Source of the DNA: Candidatus Gastranaerophilales bacterium
GTDB lineage: Bacteria; Cyanobacteriota; Vampirovibrionia; Gastranaerophilales; CAJFVJ01
Length of the DNA stretch: 64,000 nt
Direction of reading: 5' to 3'
Assembly: GCA_944323485.1 (NCBI GenBank)
Contig: CALUSR010000005.1
Location: forward strand, 1-64,000
The notes beneath the pieces were generated by a model. That model was not told the DNA's origin. It did not search any database and was given only the letters and a program-made list of their open reading frames with translations. Below are positions 45,615 through 59,897 of this stretch, in pieces; position 1 is the first letter of the stretch; each line of letters opens with the position of its first letter. A program made the translations under genes and the position numbers.

Positions 45615-46253
45615 ATGTATATTACTCCGGTAAATTTTTCTCACCCAGCTACAGGCAGAAATAAAACTCAGAATTCCTACAGTTCTTCTTTAAGTAAAAA
45701 TAACTATAATTTAAATTCTTATAATACAGACACTGTTTCCTTTAAAGGATTACCGCTAAGAAAAACTCCGTTTGAAAAAGCATTATCAGAACTCGGACTT
45801 TCAAAAAAAGTTCAAAAAGGGATTACACAATTTTTTGACAACGGAAAGAATTTTTTTAAAAAAACTATAAAATCTATTGACTCAGAGGACATCCCTGAAG
45901 AGCTGTCGGATGAAGCAAAACAGCTTAGACAGATTGGAGAAGACGGTTTGGAATACTTTAGACAACTTACTACAAAAGGAAAGATTGATCCTGCTACTGA
46001 AAAACAAACAATGGAGAATGTGTCAAACTATATACAAATAATGAGGCAACAACTTTCTGCCCCTGAATATGATGATTTGGAATTGAAGGAAACTTTTTTA
46101 GATATGTTCAATTTTGTGGATGATATGATGAAAAAACCTGTTGAATCCACGCAAGAAGGCATAGATGCACTAAAAAAAATGGCAGGATTTTTTAAAGAAT
46201 TAAAGAAAAATGAAGAATTTAGAAGTATTTTATCTGAAGTTATGAAAAAATAA
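45615..46253 (+). CDS. Hypothetical protein with an N-terminal VSFKG motif
   Basis: 212 residues. The N-terminal ~40 residues are Asn/Ser/Tyr-rich (TGRNKTQNSYSSSLSKNNYN) and lead to TVSFKGLPLRK near residue 43. The rest is helical and charged (LSDEAKQLRQIGEDGLEYFR, FLDMFNFVDDMMKKP). The SFKG tag also occurs in related forms in the genes at 47886 and 57711. No signal peptide. Function unknown. It follows the membrane protein gene by 28 nt and may be cotranscribed. Confidence 0.6.
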   Translation: MYITPVNFSHPATGRNKTQNSYSSSLSKNNYNLNSYNTDTVSFKGLPLRKTPFEKALSELGLSKKVQKGITQFFDNGKNFFKKTIKSIDSEDIPEELSDEAKQLRQIGEDGLEYFRQLTTKGKIDPATEKQTMENVSNYIQIMRQQLSAPEYDDLELKETFLDMFNFVDDMMKKPVESTQEGIDALKKMAGFFKELKKNEEFRSILSEVMKK

Positions 46254-47885: not shown

Positions 47886-48656
47886 ATGAACATACAAAAA
47901 ATTTCGCTCCCTCAAATAGTTTCTTTTTCAGGGAAAGATGATGACAAAAAAAATATAAAAAAAGAACCTCAAACATTAAAACAGCCTGAAGCAAGTGCTC
48001 AGGATGCGCTTGATAGTATGGGACGGGCACAGATAATCAATATGCCTCAAAGACCCAAAAAGTTGAAAACAATAGAAGAAAAATGCGACTATTTTATTGA
48101 TAAATACAAAAAAGAAATAGATGCTGTTCAACATGGCGCAAGTGTTCCATTATCAACACCTGAAGAATTCATTGAATCAAGAGAAAACGTAATAAACAGA
48201 CTGACGATACTCAAATCACTTGATGAAAGATATTCCAAAAAACTCGGAAAAAGAGAGTTGATGGACATAGGATTTGATTATAATGATACAGATACACTGA
48301 AAAAAAATATAGAAATAATGAACGGTCTTGATGACAAATTTCTTCCAAAGATTCGTCCGTTTGCTATGCCGTATTTTCTTGAGTTTCCGAGATTGCAGGA
48401 ATCATTTGACCGGCTTGGAAAGATGAATGATGTGCTCTTTGAACATCTCTCTACCTCAGCATTCACGGATGCCGTGCTTGAAACAGATGTCTGCACTGAA
48501 TCTGAGTCAACAATCAAAAAGTTTATGATACTGCAGCAAGCAATAGACTGCGGTCAAATAACAGACAAACAGATTGATGACTGGTTCAGCGGGAAAATAA
48601 TCCTCGATGTGGATCTGCCCAAAGCAGAGATAGTTGATATGAAAAAGCCTGACTAA
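47886..48656 (+). CDS. Hypothetical protein with an N-terminal VSFSG motif
   Basis: 256 residues from the ATG at 47886 (AGGAA 5 nt upstream); an upstream in-frame ATG at 47853 is less likely. VSFSGKDDDKK occurs near residue 12. The rest is charged and helical, with a KNIEIMNGLDDKFLPKIRPF segment and two Cys residues. No known domain. A stop at 48654-48656 is followed in the same frame by the serine-recombinase fragment. Confidence 0.55.
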   Translation: MNIQKISLPQIVSFSGKDDDKKNIKKEPQTLKQPEASAQDALDSMGRAQIINMPQRPKKLKTIEEKCDYFIDKYKKEIDAVQHGASVPLSTPEEFIESRENVINRLTILKSLDERYSKKLGKRELMDIGFDYNDTDTLKKNIEIMNGLDDKFLPKIRPFAMPYFLEFPRLQESFDRLGKMNDVLFEHLSTSAFTDAVLETDVCTESESTIKKFMILQQAIDCGQITDKQIDDWFSGKIILDVDLPKAEIVDMKKPD

Positions 48657-49201: not shown

Positions 49202-50191
49202 CTAATGTATTTCTAAAAATTTGTATCCATTAAAATGTACCATGTGTTCTGGCGTTTCAGCTATCCAAACCTCAGTTTCCCAAGCTATATCTAAAATCCA
49301 TTTTTTGAAATCTTTTTTTGTCAAAAAAGCTGTTATGAAAATAATCTCCGCCGTACATTTATTCAATTGTTCTTTTAATTTTCTTACTCTTATTTCACTC
49401 ATTGGACCTGCACTATGTACTGCCTCGCATAAAAATAACAGATTTTTGTCTTTACTATAAGCAATCACATCAGGAAGTTCTTCGTGCTTTATATTAAAAC
49501 ATTTTAATTCTTCTAATTTTTTATCATCCTTGTATAAAAACTTGTTTGTAGTGTCACCAATATACAACACTTGCGAATTAAAACCAAATTTGGTAAGGAA
49601 ATTCTCTACAATTTCTTTTTGTAGTACGTTATGTTCTCCAAATGACAGTTCAATATTTTCACCAGAAGGTAGTGCAACAGGAATCTTTTGTAAATTTCTT
49701 CTGTGTTCCATTTCTTCTTTAAGAGATTTATTTTCAAATAAAAACTTATTTAATTCTACTTCCCAGTTTGATTTGCCATATGCCTTTATTAAAGAAGCAA
49801 ACAGAGGATTTAATCCATATCCTCGAGTAGGATTATTAGTTGCCTTTTCTTCCAACATACAGGAGTTAAAAACAATTCCAGCAGATACTAATAATATCAA
49901 ATCTTTTCTTCTTATATCATCGTACGAGCCAGACGAAATATTTTCAGAATAATATTTATTTTCAAATTCAATAATATCTCTTGTTTTTAGAAAATAATTA
50001 TCATTAATTGTTAATACTTCTGAAAAAGAATTTTTTATATTACCTACGGCTAATAAAGCTAAAACCATACGCTCTTTTCTTCTATCAGACAAATTATCGA
50101 GTGGAATGCCTATGAAATTTAAAATATCCAACGTATCAAAAATTATTTTCTGAAGTTTATTATTTTTGTTTCCAGTTAATTTTATTCTCAT
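49202..50191 (-). CDS. BsuBI/PstI-family type II restriction endonuclease
   Basis: 329 residues. The C-terminal half shows the family core: EELPDVIAYSKDKNLLFLCE, AVHSAGPMSEIRVRKLKE, and AWETEVWIAETPEHMVHFNG. The PD...E-x-V arrangement is the family's catalytic region. The N-terminal half (about 1-150) is helical and winged-helix-like. The start overlaps the methyltransferase stop (ATGA). Codon use is A/T-richer than in neighbours, consistent with transfer. PstI and BsuBI cut CTGCAG; the specificity of this protein is not known. Confidence 0.8.
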   Translation of the reverse strand: MRIKLTGNKNNKLQKIIFDTLDILNFIGIPLDNLSDRRKERMVLALLAVGNIKNSFSEVLTINDNYFLKTRDIIEFENKYYSENISSGSYDDIRRKDLILLVSAGIVFNSCMLEEKATNNPTRGYGLNPLFASLIKAYGKSNWEVELNKFLFENKSLKEEMEHRRNLQKIPVALPSGENIELSFGEHNVLQKEIVENFLTKFGFNSQVLYIGDTTNKFLYKDDKKLEELKCFNIKHEELPDVIAYSKDKNLLFLCEAVHSAGPMSEIRVRKLKEQLNKCTAEIIFITAFLTKKDFKKWILDIAWETEVWIAETPEHMVHFNGYKFLEIH

Positions 50192-51198
50192 ATCGCCTCT
50201 AAAATATTTAGTTGTTTGCTATAACAATAATTATCATTTTGTTTGCATAAATTATAGTATGAATCTTTTATTGCAAGAGCAATTTTATATGCCATAAGGG
50301 GTGGAACCGCATTGCCTATTTGATTAAATTGCTCGGTTTCGTTTCCACAAAATTCAAACCAATCGGGAAAACTTTGAAGTCGTGCAGCTTCTCTATGTAG
50401 TAAACGTCTTCTTTTACCATCTTTCAATTTTATTCTTTGCATATCACTAGTTGCTCCTGCTAGATTCCTACAGGTAAGAGTTCTTGCTGGCTTATCAGGA
50501 TGTAAATCTCTAGGAACTTTGCAACAAGATGCTTTTTCATATCTTGCTATATATTCATCTTGAGATTTTGTTAAAAACTTACTATCTGGTGGGGTTGTAT
50601 ACATCATATCGCCAATAGCATCTTCTACATTTACTTTTTTATTTTCTTTGTTTGGGAAAGTAAAATTATTTTTATGCCCTACTACAATTAATCTCTCTCT
50701 ATTTTGTGGAACCCCATAATCAACAGCATTCAGGCAATTAACACTTATTTTATATCCTAAATTGGTTAATTCATTTATTATTAATTCTAAATACCATTTG
50801 TGTGAATACATCAAATTCCTAACATTTTCAAACATAAAAATATTAGGTCGAATTGTCTTAATCGCATCTATAAATATAGGGAAGCCGTCTCTTGCGTCTT
50901 CCATACCTTTTTGCACGCCCCTAATACTAAAAGGCTGACAAGGTGGACCTCCTATCACAATATCGGCTTTGGGATATCTAAAGCCAACGAATAATTTCTC
51001 ATTGTAGCAAATGCCTGATAAATTCGCATTATATGTATCAGAAGCCGCCCTATTCATTTCGTAACCCACTGTTGTAAATCCTGCTGCTTCAAAGCCTAGT
51101 GACAACCCTCCACAACCAGCAAATAGATCAAGTACAATAACTTCATTATTGTCTTTTTTGGGTCTCAAATTCTCGTTTATTATTTTTAGAAATGACAT
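50188..51198 (-). CDS. DNA (cytosine-5) methyltransferase
   Basis: 336 residues with all main motifs in order: I (VLDLFAGCGGLSLGFEAAGF), IV with the catalytic Cys (IVIGGPPCQPFSIRG), VI (FENVRNL), VIII (VPQNRERLIVVG), IX, and X (QIGNAVPPLMAYKIALAI). The target-recognition region is between motifs VIII and IX (about 200-265). It presumably methylates the site cut by the adjacent nuclease. BsuBI/PstI nucleases are typically paired with N6-adenine methyltransferases, so a C5 enzyme partner is noteworthy. The gene is first in the module. Confidence 0.93.
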   Translation of the reverse strand: MSFLKIINENLRPKKDNNEVIVLDLFAGCGGLSLGFEAAGFTTVGYEMNRAASDTYNANLSGICYNEKLFVGFRYPKADIVIGGPPCQPFSIRGVQKGMEDARDGFPIFIDAIKTIRPNIFMFENVRNLMYSHKWYLELIINELTNLGYKISVNCLNAVDYGVPQNRERLIVVGHKNNFTFPNKENKKVNVEDAIGDMMYTTPPDSKFLTKSQDEYIARYEKASCCKVPRDLHPDKPARTLTCRNLAGATSDMQRIKLKDGKRRRLLHREAARLQSFPDWFEFCGNETEQFNQIGNAVPPLMAYKIALAIKDSYYNLCKQNDNYCYSKQLNILEAI

Positions 51199-52277: not shown

Positions 52278-52391
52278 AAAAACATCCCTAAAATATTGTA
52301 ACAAATTATGTCATATCATCACAATATCATAAAGAAAAGAATTATTCATCCGATAAGAAAAATACTACGTTGTTATCTATGGGAGAAAAAA

Positions 52392-54443
52392 ATGAGTGTA
52401 GATATTAATCAGCTTGCGCTAAAAAGCAATGAAGTATTAAACAAACAAAAATCATCAAAAAAAATAAAAGATAAACTTACAGGCAAAGGAATGGATTTGA
52501 CGAACGGTCTATCAGAAAAAGAATTGAAAAAAATTGACAAAAACGGAGACGGCAAAGTAACTCAAAAAGAATTCATAGAAAATTTTGATAAAAGAGACCA
52601 GAAGACAGCCAAAAAACTTTATCAGGAATACTTTGAAGCATTTAAAGAAAAAACAACAAAAAAAGAAGCTTCAAAAAATGCTGCTGCACAACAAACCTCA
52701 AACACAGCAGAAAAAGAAACTTCAAAAAGCGCTGCTGCACAACAGAAAGCTGCAAAATCAACAAAAAAAGCAAGCCTGCTGAATGCGACAAAAGTTAGCG
52801 AAACTCAAATAACCAAATATAAAAACGGACAAACAAAGACAAAAACAACAAAAGACAAAAACGGCAATACAGTAGTAATCAACTACAATAAAAACGGTCA
52901 AAAATCATCCAAAATAACAACAGCTAAAGACGGTACACAAACAGAAATAAACTATAAAGATAATAAACCCGTAAAAAGAAGCGTATCAGACAAACAAGGA
53001 AAAGTTGAGACAGAAACGACTTATTCTTACAATGAAAAAGGAGTTCTCAAGAAAAAACGGACAACAGACTTTGATAATAATACTCACAAAACAACAACTT
53101 ATAATGAGGACAAAAAGCCCCAAAAGACTATAACAATAACACAAACAGGAAAAACCATTTCAAAAACCTCTTATTCTTATGACTCAAAAGGAAATCTTAC
53201 ATCAAAAAATAAAACCAACAGTATAACAGGTGCCAAAACAACTTATACCTATGATAAAAACGGTAACCTTGATACAAAAACAACCGTAGCAAAAAACGGA
53301 AATACAACATCTGTAGACTACGGAAAAATAACCTCACAAAACGGTGAACAATCAAGAATAGCAACCATTACAAAAAATGGAAAAACATACACCGAAAAAC
53401 AAATTTTTACAAACGGAAAAGTATCAAAAAAACAACGCTATGAAGGAGTGGTAAGCCAAAAAGAACTTTCTTCAAAAAATTCTCCTCAGCCAATTTCAGA
53501 AACTCAAATTTCAAGAGATGCTCTCGGCAGAATTTCTGAAACTGTTCAAGTCTTATACAACAAAGACGGCAGCGCCAAATCTGTTAAAATAGGTTCTTAT
53601 AATAAAGGTCGTACTCTATCAAAAAGCATATACGGCATAGACGAAGAAAACGCCTCTGACGCAAAAACTATCACAACAGATAATTACCAAAAATATCTCG
53701 GGAAAAAAGAAAAAGTATCTCACTACGATAACTATGGAAACTTCGTGAGAACAGGTGATATTCTCTCAGAAGAAGAAGCCGCCAAAAACCTTGAAAAAGC
53801 CCTTGAGAATGCCCAAACTGCATATACTCAAGAAATAAGCGCTTATCCTGAACTGACCGAGGCAAACAATTTAAATATGAAATATACAAACGCTTATCTT
53901 GAATATGAAATAGCCGGCTACAACGGTGAAGACCAAAAAGCAGAGCAAATACTGGAAGAAGAGATGCTGCCTCTTTATGCAGAGTTGGAAGATTTACCGG
54001 AAGACCTTCATATTGAAGCAGAAAACAGAAAAAAAGCAACTAAAGCACTAAAAGCTGCCTTCGAAGACTATGAAGCAGCCTTAGGCGTTGAAGCGGACCA
54101 GGATGTGAAAGCTATAAAAGACGCTTTATTTGAATCTCTATTCTGGACTGTCGGTATATCAAAAGATGCGGAAGCTTACGATGAAATAAAAGAACAGGAC
54201 AAAATCATAGAAGAAATGGCGCCTCTTGAAGACGAATACGCTGATATCCTCAAAGAAAAAGGAGATACAAAAACAGCAGAATTCTTCGACAAACTCGCAG
54301 ATCAGCACAAATCTATAGTAAAAGATATCAATACCTCAAATTCAAAACAGGTGGATAAAACAGACGCTGCAGAATGGCAAAAAGAAACTTCAAAACTCTT
54401 TGAAGAATATAAACAGGCAATAGAAAAAGCTCTTAAAAATTAG
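52392..54443 (+). CDS. Large EF-hand protein with YD-like repeats
   Basis: 683 residues from the ATG at 52392 (GGGAG upstream; an in-frame ATG at 52308 is rejected). An EF-hand loop DKNGDGKVTQKE sits at about residues 49-60. A Lys/Ala/Thr/Gln-rich linker follows (about 75-135). Residues about 140-400 hold 10 or more short repeats like YNxNGxKxxKxTxxxDGxTxxxxY, resembling YD/RHS-type repeats. The C-terminal ~200 residues form coiled-coil helices (ALENAQTAYTQEISAYPELT). No signal peptide is seen. It may be a Ca2+-binding scaffold or a secreted toxin-like filament; this is inference. Confidence 0.65.
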   Translation: MSVDINQLALKSNEVLNKQKSSKKIKDKLTGKGMDLTNGLSEKELKKIDKNGDGKVTQKEFIENFDKRDQKTAKKLYQEYFEAFKEKTTKKEASKNAAAQQTSNTAEKETSKSAAAQQKAAKSTKKASLLNATKVSETQITKYKNGQTKTKTTKDKNGNTVVINYNKNGQKSSKITTAKDGTQTEINYKDNKPVKRSVSDKQGKVETETTYSYNEKGVLKKKRTTDFDNNTHKTTTYNEDKKPQKTITITQTGKTISKTSYSYDSKGNLTSKNKTNSITGAKTTYTYDKNGNLDTKTTVAKNGNTTSVDYGKITSQNGEQSRIATITKNGKTYTEKQIFTNGKVSKKQRYEGVVSQKELSSKNSPQPISETQISRDALGRISETVQVLYNKDGSAKSVKIGSYNKGRTLSKSIYGIDEENASDAKTITTDNYQKYLGKKEKVSHYDNYGNFVRTGDILSEEEAAKNLEKALENAQTAYTQEISAYPELTEANNLNMKYTNAYLEYEIAGYNGEDQKAEQILEEEMLPLYAELEDLPEDLHIEAENRKKATKALKAAFEDYEAALGVEADQDVKAIKDALFESLFWTVGISKDAEAYDEIKEQDKIIEEMAPLEDEYADILKEKGDTKTAEFFDKLADQHKSIVKDINTSNSKQVDKTDAAEWQKETSKLFEEYKQAIEKALKN

Positions 54444-57575: not shown

Positions 57576-57614
57576 AAAGAGAAAGAGGCTGATAAAACAG
57601 CCTCTTTCTCTTTT
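57576..57614 (+). terminator. Rho-independent terminator
   Basis: AGAGAAAGAGGCTG-ATAAAA-CAGCCTCTTTCTCT then TTTT. It ends the fdtA operon. Confidence 0.88.
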
Positions 57615-57710: not shown

Positions 57711-59897
57711 ATGAACATATCCCCGATTACCCTCCCTGTTTTCTTACAACAATATCAACAAAAAACAGAAAAATATACTCTCAAACAACCTTCCCTATCA
57801 GATGTTTTTATCCGTTCATCAAAACCGCAAAACACCTCATTCTCTGGCAATCAACCCAATCAATTTACTATTGATGAATTTTATATCTCTGATACGGATA
57901 ATAAAACATATCAAAAGTATATAGAACAAAAACTTGAGAAACCGGCTCTCCCTTATGCCTATAACGAGCTGCCGCAAGTAATCGGAGCTAAAAAAAATAT
58001 CTTCGGAGGAACCGAAGAGGTTTATAACTACAACCGTGATAAACTTCAAAAAAAAGCTGTCTACACAGGTCCGTATGTCCCGACCCCGAAAGATTCCTCA
58101 GCCCCCAAAATCAACACTGAAGAACTGAAAGCAGAATTAAAAAAAACAAACTCTCTTGACTATACAATCCCAATTGCAGAAAATAGCCACTACAAACCTG
58201 AATATGCCCCAAATGCTTACATAACACAATCTCAAGAACAATATCTCAACAAAACCTCAAATACTGACCTGACAATACGTTATGGAGCTGTCGTAAACTG
58301 GTCTGATTCAAAAATAGCAAGAGATATAATGCAAAATTTCTACGACGGACACAACCAAACATTGGAAGGAACCCGCCTCAACATACAATACGACCGTACA
58401 ACAAAAAAATACACCGTAAAAATAAAAGGTAACAGCACATACCCCTATGATTTTATACAATATATAGGCAAAGGCACAAAATTCAATGATACAACATCCG
58501 CAGGAGGCTTTGGAGAAGGCTCAAAAATCCTTGCCTGCAATCTTCTTGCCCGTCAAGACAAAAAAGGCAAATTTTCAACGGACTATGTAAAATACTCAAG
58601 CGCCGACTGGCAGATTACGCTTTCAAGAAGCTCAGATGACTTAGACTCAGCTATAATGCAAAGAACTCTCGAAAAAGTACCAGAACAAAACGGCAATAGC
58701 ATCGAATTCACAACAAATAATAAAGAGCTGATATATAGGATAATAGACAGCCTGAACTGGTTTGAAAGCCCTTATAATGAAGATTTTCAAAACCTTGACT
58801 TTGACAACGGTATCTTCGGGTTAAAACTTCTGGGTTCTGGGGAGCAAGGCAATCTGTATCTTACCCAGAGGTTTGAATACGAAAAAACCGACAACTGGGA
58901 TAACTCTATTCGAAATGCCGATGTAATCTTCAGAAAAAAACCTGACAGTTCCATTTTCTCCGTATCAAGAGATAGAACATACCTGAATAAGTATGATATC
59001 GAAACGATTTCAGAAAATATTGTTGAAGAATTTTCTGATGATGAAATTCTCGATTTGATAATAAAACTTGACTCTATCTGGAAATCACCCAAACGTGATG
59101 ATGCAATGACAAAAATAACAGAAGCTCTTGCGCAAGAAGCATCTTCAAGGAAAATAGGAATTGACTTCAAAGACAAAAAATTTGTAGCAGTACCGAAATT
59201 TACGGGAGAAAAAGACCTTGAATTTCTCTCACTCCTTGGTTATACCCCTGTCAATAGTGCACTGAAATATCTTGTTCCAACACTGGAAGAAATTAATACA
59301 ACAATGAGCAATCATATTCCAGTAGAACCTACTGAAAATGAAATTAAAAGAATGATACTCCTCACAGAGGCAACAAAACTTATTCAATCATCAACTTCAA
59401 AACAAATAGTTCTAGATACAGGCAGAGCATTCGCCAAGAATATTCCTCCATATTCCGAAGAATATATAATAAAAGGTAATAAAGAAGACCTGTTTTTCAT
59501 AAGACAACTTCAACAACTGAAAAAAGATTATGTTTCATCAGAATTATTTTCAGAAGAAGACTGCGAACAACCCGTATTTTTATTTGATAAAACGCAGGAA
59601 GGCAAACTTGATAACTCCGTTGCTCAGGCAATAACAGGATATGATAAAAACTTGAAAACAACTAAATTCTACGGTCACTGGATTGATAGAAACTACCTCA
59701 ACTCAGGAAACTTTTACAAACTGCTTGCAACATACCTGCATGAAATTAACCATCAACACGGCGGCGACGGCTCATCGGAATTTACTTATGCTTTGACCGA
59801 AGAATTAGGAATAATCCTCTCAATTCTCTCATCTCAACCTGAAACAGCTTCCAAATTGAATATGCTCGCTCAAAAATTCGAGCAAATACCCTCCTAA
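57711..59897 (+). CDS. Predicted GHKL-type ATPase fused to an HExxH metallopeptidase-like domain
   Basis: 728 residues. The N-terminus has the lineage tag NTSFSG (about residue 41). Residues about 185-345 carry GHKL (HSP90/MutL/histidine-kinase-type) ATP-binding marks: the N-box KIARDIMQNFYDGHNQ with Asn209 and Asp212, and the glycine box TSAGGFGEGSKILACNLL (GGFGEG, 265-270). The middle (about 350-560) is less clear. The C-terminal region has YLHEINHQHGGDGSSEFTYA: His677-Glu678-x2-His681, a zincin HExxH motif, with Glu690 as a possible third ligand. There is no signal peptide and no TM segment. I do not recognise a named family. AAGG precedes the start. It is flanked by terminators and the Lrp promoter, so it is a single-gene unit. 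Confidence 0.7.
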   Translation: MNISPITLPVFLQQYQQKTEKYTLKQPSLSDVFIRSSKPQNTSFSGNQPNQFTIDEFYISDTDNKTYQKYIEQKLEKPALPYAYNELPQVIGAKKNIFGGTEEVYNYNRDKLQKKAVYTGPYVPTPKDSSAPKINTEELKAELKKTNSLDYTIPIAENSHYKPEYAPNAYITQSQEQYLNKTSNTDLTIRYGAVVNWSDSKIARDIMQNFYDGHNQTLEGTRLNIQYDRTTKKYTVKIKGNSTYPYDFIQYIGKGTKFNDTTSAGGFGEGSKILACNLLARQDKKGKFSTDYVKYSSADWQITLSRSSDDLDSAIMQRTLEKVPEQNGNSIEFTTNNKELIYRIIDSLNWFESPYNEDFQNLDFDNGIFGLKLLGSGEQGNLYLTQRFEYEKTDNWDNSIRNADVIFRKKPDSSIFSVSRDRTYLNKYDIETISENIVEEFSDDEILDLIIKLDSIWKSPKRDDAMTKITEALAQEASSRKIGIDFKDKKFVAVPKFTGEKDLEFLSLLGYTPVNSALKYLVPTLEEINTTMSNHIPVEPTENEIKRMILLTEATKLIQSSTSKQIVLDTGRAFAKNIPPYSEEYIIKGNKEDLFFIRQLQQLKKDYVSSELFSEEDCEQPVFLFDKTQEGKLDNSVAQAITGYDKNLKTTKFYGHWIDRNYLNSGNFYKLLATYLHEINHQHGGDGSSEFTYALTEELGIILSILSSQPETASKLNMLAQKFEQIPS

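Follow-up and report, generated by a model that had tools for sequence, protein, structure and literature searches.

Does the 728-residue protein encoded at 57711..59897 (plus strand, ATG start) of the window, the 64,000-nucleotide stretch of DNA analysed here, join a GHKL-type ATPase to a metallopeptidase in a single chain, and if so, what might such a combination do? An initial annotation made from the sequence had proposed this union; its coordinates and protein length match the open reading frame listing, and the N-box IARDIMQNFYDGHNQ, the glycine box AGGFGEGSKI and the HEINH motif at residues 677–681 read as it stated. The genome containing the window is 2.05 Mb. The protein is closest to its orthologue in Candidatus Adamsella avium (85% identity), and further relatives carry the labels Gastranaerophilales or Melainabacteria; by sequence relationship, the host is therefore a gut bacterium from the non-photosynthetic sister group of the cyanobacteria. 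A strong terminator-like hairpin of 16 pairs (57576..57613; listed on the minus strand, though on the plus strand, too, its sequence forms a stem and then runs into TTTT) separates the gene from an upstream acetyltransferase gene, and an Lrp-type regulator and an aminotransferase lie downstream (names by eye). The gene probably forms a transcription unit by itself. Purifying selection on the protein is strongest in the zincin (dN/dS against the Adamsella avium gene of 0.125, vs 0.17 for GHKL plus transducer and 0.21 overall). A chance co-occurrence of the GHKL and HExxH motifs was ruled out by these ratios together with invariance across 36–50 modules.

An AlphaFold2 model built with 50 aligned modules had a mean pLDDT of 78 over the full protein and exceeded 83 through most of the GHKL and zincin parts. 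The GHKL (Bergerat-fold) domain was placed at residues 182–335 (58254..58715; this and all further protein features are on the plus strand) by AlphaFold, Foldseek and hhalign to phage GHKL proteins, and its pLDDT was mostly 84–97 except in a flexible loop at 253–264. When the whole model was compared with the PDB using Foldseek, all 20 matches at E ≤ 0.001 were to Hsp90, TRAP1 or topoisomerase ATPase regions, and the GHKL domain matched Hsp90, TRAP1 and topoisomerases II and VI with probabilities of 0.9–1.0. The predicted structure strongly supports a GHKL fold; the lack of one, which the initial annotation had set in advance as grounds against its ATPase claim, was not what we found.

The nucleotide site is conserved in an unusual form. 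The N-box (residues 203–213, ARDIMQNFYDG; 58317..58349) has, by conservation, D205 at the general-base position and N209 at the Mg-binding position, both kept in 50/50 modules, with Asp standing where Glu is usual. Also invariant in all 50 modules are W197, R204, Q208, F210, G240, Q386, R422 and residues G265, G268, E269 and G270 of the glycine box (GxxGxG; residues 264–270, AGGFGEG; 58500..58520), and K257 is conserved in 47/50. Motif II (DxGxG) is not intact, the position of its adenine-contacting Asp being Gly240 (58428..58430) in 50/50 modules. In a joint alignment this position is Gly in the 50 modules and a class-level relative (L119), Asp in Firmicutes modules and Ser, Asn or Thr in phages, and the N-box acid is Asp in the same 50 modules and L119 and Glu in nearly all others. 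At the level of aligned residues, the Gastranaerophilales class is set apart by its N-box Asp and by Gly in place of the adenine-contacting Asp. Since the phosphate-site residues are kept and the motif II Asp and N-box Glu are replaced, the phosphate side of the pocket appears conserved and the base side altered; with both replacements, ATP may bind poorly or be hydrolysed slowly.

The AlphaFold model and conservation place a transducer (S5-like) domain at residues 338–440 (58722..59030), and the Foldseek alignments extend through the second domains of topoisomerase and TRAP1. Its RDR motif (420–422; 58968–58976; R422 in 50/50 modules) is found in all phage and plasmid relatives compared, with the arginines retained nearly everywhere in the joint alignment. 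S5 domains supply a basic finger (PMC2292703), and by analogy the RDR arginines likely correspond to it. Beyond the transducer, predicted secondary structure gives an alpha/beta segment common to the phage relatives and within the hhalign span (482–532; 59154..59306) and a helical linker (542–608; 59334..59534).

The zincin domain (residues 615–728; 59553..59894) was delimited by the domain model, Foldseek and hhalign. Modelled alone, the C-terminal 188 residues gave a pLDDT of 84, and the best PDB matches of the zincin alone in Foldseek were selecase, Wss1, jannalysin and HtpX, all weak (E 0.07–1.7, the first three among the best). Profile-profile comparison (hhalign) with the GHKL-linked zincin tails of phages and Firmicutes, an outgroup of six sequences, gave E 2.4e-11. 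The HEINH motif (677–681; 59739..59753) sits on an AlphaFold2-predicted helix at 668–683, and the wider HExxHxxGxD plus F691 (H677, E678, H681, G684, D686, F691) is invariant in 36/36 HExxH-bearing modules, as are A640, I641 and G655. This invariance makes Asp686 (59766..59768) the leading candidate third metal ligand, and the outgroup tails also have an invariant Asp that aligns with D686 by profile comparison. Motif, predicted topology and profile homology point, weakly, to a zincin fold. The union of GHKL and zincin in one protein is thus upheld by fold, conservation and independent homologues with the same order, its zincin half less firmly given those Foldseek E values. Nor do the homologues lack both motifs, which had been named beforehand as evidence against the proposal: GHKL motifs are present in 50/50 modules and HExxH in 36/36 zincin-bearing ones.

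A profile search found relatives in 78/383 same-order genomes, and class-wide in 57/289 genomes sampled, across several other families (a count that takes in same-order genomes). Giant relatives (1185–4366 aa in open frame) carry two GHKL-zincin modules with nucleotide-site motifs intact in both; in the second module the HExxH and Asp are lost and the GHKL motifs are intact, and the phosphate-site residues are invariant in 50/50 modules, these second modules with dead zincin included. Stretches that are EF-hand-like or LysM-like, none of them reaching its Pfam cut-off, occur in the giants' N-terminal extensions. In many ~720-aa relatives a short N-terminal tag is followed, judging by eye, by an apparent transmembrane helix and a coiled coil. 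Directly 3′ of three giant two-module genes lies a conserved protein of ~143 aa (MN.IN...NFKG...RAEREVPEYG.FAPVYEQFANPDKSL; L091:17194-17622, L094:8931-9359, L095:6299-6727), a possible partner of the giants. At L037:10531-13228, two ORFs adjoining a giant gene look by eye like a Mu-type transposase and its ATPase; this locus is also present as IMG/VR contig L054, a Gastranaerophilales-like locus within a viral collection.

The N-terminus of the window protein is disordered (residues 1–61, pLDDT <50; 57711..57893) and bears the lineage tag MNISPI...SFSG, with SFSG at 57837–57848. In this lineage, a tag of approximate form M-x-I-x-x-[IV] ... [SNVP]F[KQS][GA] recurs among unrelated proteins, within their first 60 residues (23/222 N-termini vs 32/1345 internal segments of equal length); a few of the matches are ordinary hydrophobic leaders, and the tag may be a sorting signal. 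By motif search it is borne by window genes at 45615-46250, 47886-48653 and 57711-59894 and elsewhere by L034:3676-4722, L036:5979-7025, L049:5356-7581, L091:17194-17622 and others. Two further window genes lie upstream: the 711-aa product of 52308–54443 is EF-hand-like at its N-terminus, contains RHS-type repeats (scoring above the PF05593 cut-off) and resembles the giants' N-termini in style, a BLAST link to them not being found, and 50191–51198 (minus strand), ~6.5 kb away, resembles a DNA cytosine methyltransferase (VLDLFAGCGGLSLGFEAAG).

The initial annotation had taken the protein to be lineage-specific, and this we reject, because the same architecture occurs in phages, in Firmicutes and Streptomyces plasmids and in a cyanobacterium. 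The tail pattern HExAHxxSGxxDxSxxF matched a 435-aa ORF with GHKL, RDR and HELAHFMSGAHDASLSFE on a phage contig (L131; such contigs are named as phage on the strength of IMG/VR). Exiguobacterium phage vB_EalM-132 protein EalM132_00137 has the tail HETIHRVTGANDNTEAF, the plasmid 'ATP-binding proteins' of Alkaliphilus (WP_212382915.1) and Aneurinibacillus (WP_272443548.1) have HEEVHHMSGAADRTREFE and HEQVHRQSGAYDRTREFE, a Streptomyces plasmid frame has HEGGH, and a protein from the cyanobacterial phylum has HDLAH at the same place. PF13589 scores 51–57 bits (cut-off 25) in both Firmicutes plasmid proteins, and whole-protein hhalign to the phage and plasmid relatives gave E 1.9e-21 over 406 columns. 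Two matches were discarded: one in Hydrogenedentes (L053) was taken to be due to chance, a long ORF over it on the other strand being helicase-like by eye, and one on an Acaryochloris plasmid (H24) is an ordinary histidine kinase. The Alkaliphilus protein has three GHKL modules and one C-terminal HExxH, so that two unrelated tandem designs, this one and the Gastranaerophilales giants, each keep a single intact motif of this zincin type in a polypeptide. The plasmid proteins at L133:1921-5232 and L134:2380-5253, with three and at least two tandem GHKL modules, respectively, and a single C-terminal zincin, are unusual and are annotated just as 'ATP-binding protein'. Many phage relatives are without a zincin. 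The PHROG 6077 profile matches 46/50 modules (best E 9.8e-15) and the window protein at residues 191–291 only (E 3.3e-8), and HExxH was absent from the PHROG 6077 phage proteins that were translated. In a GHKL-domain tree the Gastranaerophilales class is separate from the phage/plasmid group, and support for placement of the zincin-less phage proteins is weak (39–72), so that ancestral fusion with loss and repeated gain are not distinguishable.

Together, these results place a computed GHKL fold and both motif sets in one polypeptide, with the same architecture in unrelated lineages. GHKL domains work as clamps driven by nucleotide, forming dimers when ATP binds (PMC12733681). In our preferred reading, to which we give about an even chance, the protein is a cytosolic, single-chain, nucleotide-switched metallopeptidase. 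We infer that the GHKL domain would bind a nucleoside triphosphate through its N-box, glycine box and transducer RDR; that binding would close a clamp between two GHKL domains, from two chains here and from one chain in the tandem-module relatives; that the movement would be relayed through the transducer and helical linker; and that the C-terminal zincin, its zinc held by H677, H681 and probably D686 with E678 alongside, would be opened or positioned to cut a client protein. The neighbour comparison found no conserved neighbour gene naming this client. The tandem forms, as read from their sequences, would fit a clamp, in that closure between GHKL repeats is possible inside a single chain, which keeps one protease site of this type. 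The 'ATP-gated protease' of the initial annotation is one hypothetical form of this scheme, and the changed residue at the adenine site lowers its certainty. Those energy-dependent proteases that are well characterised run on AAA+ motors; a GHKL clamp coupled to a metallopeptidase would, if true, solve the problem in another way. A bolder reading, held only tentatively, is that an HSP90/MORC-type GHKL clamp in place of an AAA+ unfoldase gates a metallopeptidase in a new class of energy-dependent protease common to phages, plasmids and a class of gut bacteria, whose Asp-to-Gly pocket may read a nucleotide other than ATP. That the design recurs in phages, megaplasmids and Vampirovibrionia hints at a use for it and not at an accident, and the tandem forms, with several nucleotide sites and one live protease site, and the Asp-to-Gly pocket yield clear testable predictions.

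The same pocket could instead belong to a pseudo-ATPase, that is, a non-hydrolysing sensor or structural dimeriser beside a zincin that is independent or controlled by another ligand. Replacement of the adenine-contacting Asp by Gly and of the N-box Glu by Asp (50/50 modules) would fit such a protein. Conservation of N209, the glycine box, K257 (47/50) and R422, on the other hand, suggests continued selection for a bound phosphate group, and we consider this reading rather doubtful. Somewhat less probable, in our judgement, is a captured phage-conflict module like T4 RIIA, in which a GHKL switch with a variable effector tail serves phages against host defences and plasmids or bacteria in the reverse direction. 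The PHROG 6077 matches, viral Foldseek matches to phage GHKL and RIIA proteins and the patchy distribution (78/383 genomes) speak for it, but the class-wide spread and long divergence, the lack of a PADLOC match above noise and the isolation of the Gastranaerophilales genes among housekeeping genes (rpoB, der, metG, groEL and others; by eye) do not. Neighbour comparison across the family loci found no consistently shared neighbour clusters, those shared being either between evidently syntenic loci or of widely repeated types, so a defence-island or operon context was rejected; restriction-modification genes were found beside no family member in the loci read. By analogy with RIIA (PMC7824862), the phage and plasmid members may plausibly take part in such conflicts, but the idea finds no support in the Gastranaerophilales lineage.

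That the protein is a clamp loaded on DNA, its Wss1/SPRTN-like protease removing proteins stuck there, seems to us quite improbable. The only hints of a nucleic-acid link are the GHKL likeness to topoisomerases II and VI and weak zincin matches, with Wss1 among the structures and WLM (PF08325) the commonest weak Pfam match (6/50 modules); however, no DNA-binding domain was recognised, WLM reaches only 17.8 bits in phage relative L131 (gathering cut-off 26) and has no match in the window protein, the third-ligand pattern differs, and some relatives have an apparent transmembrane helix. We regard as very improbable that the protein is a secreted effector, or one delivered from cell to cell, with its GHKL-zincin part at work in a different cell: the giants' long extensions with EF-hand-like and LysM-like segments and the SF.G tag are compatible with export, but no signal peptide was recognised by eye in the window protein, an apparent transmembrane helix and a coiled coil are present in several ~720-aa relatives, and phage and plasmid relatives are without such extensions.

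How, then, does this nucleotide-switched metallopeptidase, as we prefer to read it, compare with known systems? The initial annotation knew no named family, and we likewise found no name in Pfam, NCBIfam, PADLOC or the open-licence PMC papers searched. Searches of Pfam, NCBIfam, PADLOC and PDB sequences with the window protein gave no useful family (in PADLOC only E2, at E 0.007 and 13.8 bits over residues 214–250), and the PMC search for GHKL with zincin or metallopeptidase returned one jumbo-phage survey, in whose available text the fusion is not described. The PHROG 6077 phage GHKL proteins (~365 aa; Vibrio phage 1.122.A, Pectobacterium phage DU_PP_I), which are in the hhalign set, share the N-box, glycine box, RDR and GHKL/transducer/alpha-beta order, whereas the examined members have no zincin, a mostly Glu N-box acid and Ser or Asn in motif II where Gly stands here. 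The unnamed GHKL-zincin proteins (WP_212382915.1, WP_272443548.1, EalM132_00137, L131) share GHKL, RDR and a C-terminal HExxH...D.T/S..F but differ in their tail (HExxHxxSGxxD vs HExxHxxGxD here), in having up to three GHKL modules per zincin and, in the plasmid proteins, in a canonical DxGxG.

MORC/paraMORC proteins likewise pair GHKL and S5-like domains with a C-terminal effector and are sporadically distributed (PMC2292703), but carry nucleases, TIR or unknown domains as effectors and lie in restriction-modification operons, whereas here the effector is a zincin without such neighbours; membership there calls for all ATP-binding motifs intact, and here the motif II Asp is replaced. T4 RIIA-type proteins share a GHKL N-terminus with a divergent C-terminal part and appear among the viral Foldseek matches. 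The likeness is structural only, tblastn to RIIA-annotated proteins giving just marginal matches (E 2–7); a zincin tail is not reported for them in the available part of the source, and the one RIIA-annotated protein translated (L090) is without HExxH. Finally, Wss1/WLM and the minizincins selecase and jannalysin share the HExxH helix and, on weak structural matches, a putative small zincin fold but differ in third ligand and spacing, and the zincin described here is fused to a GHKL domain.
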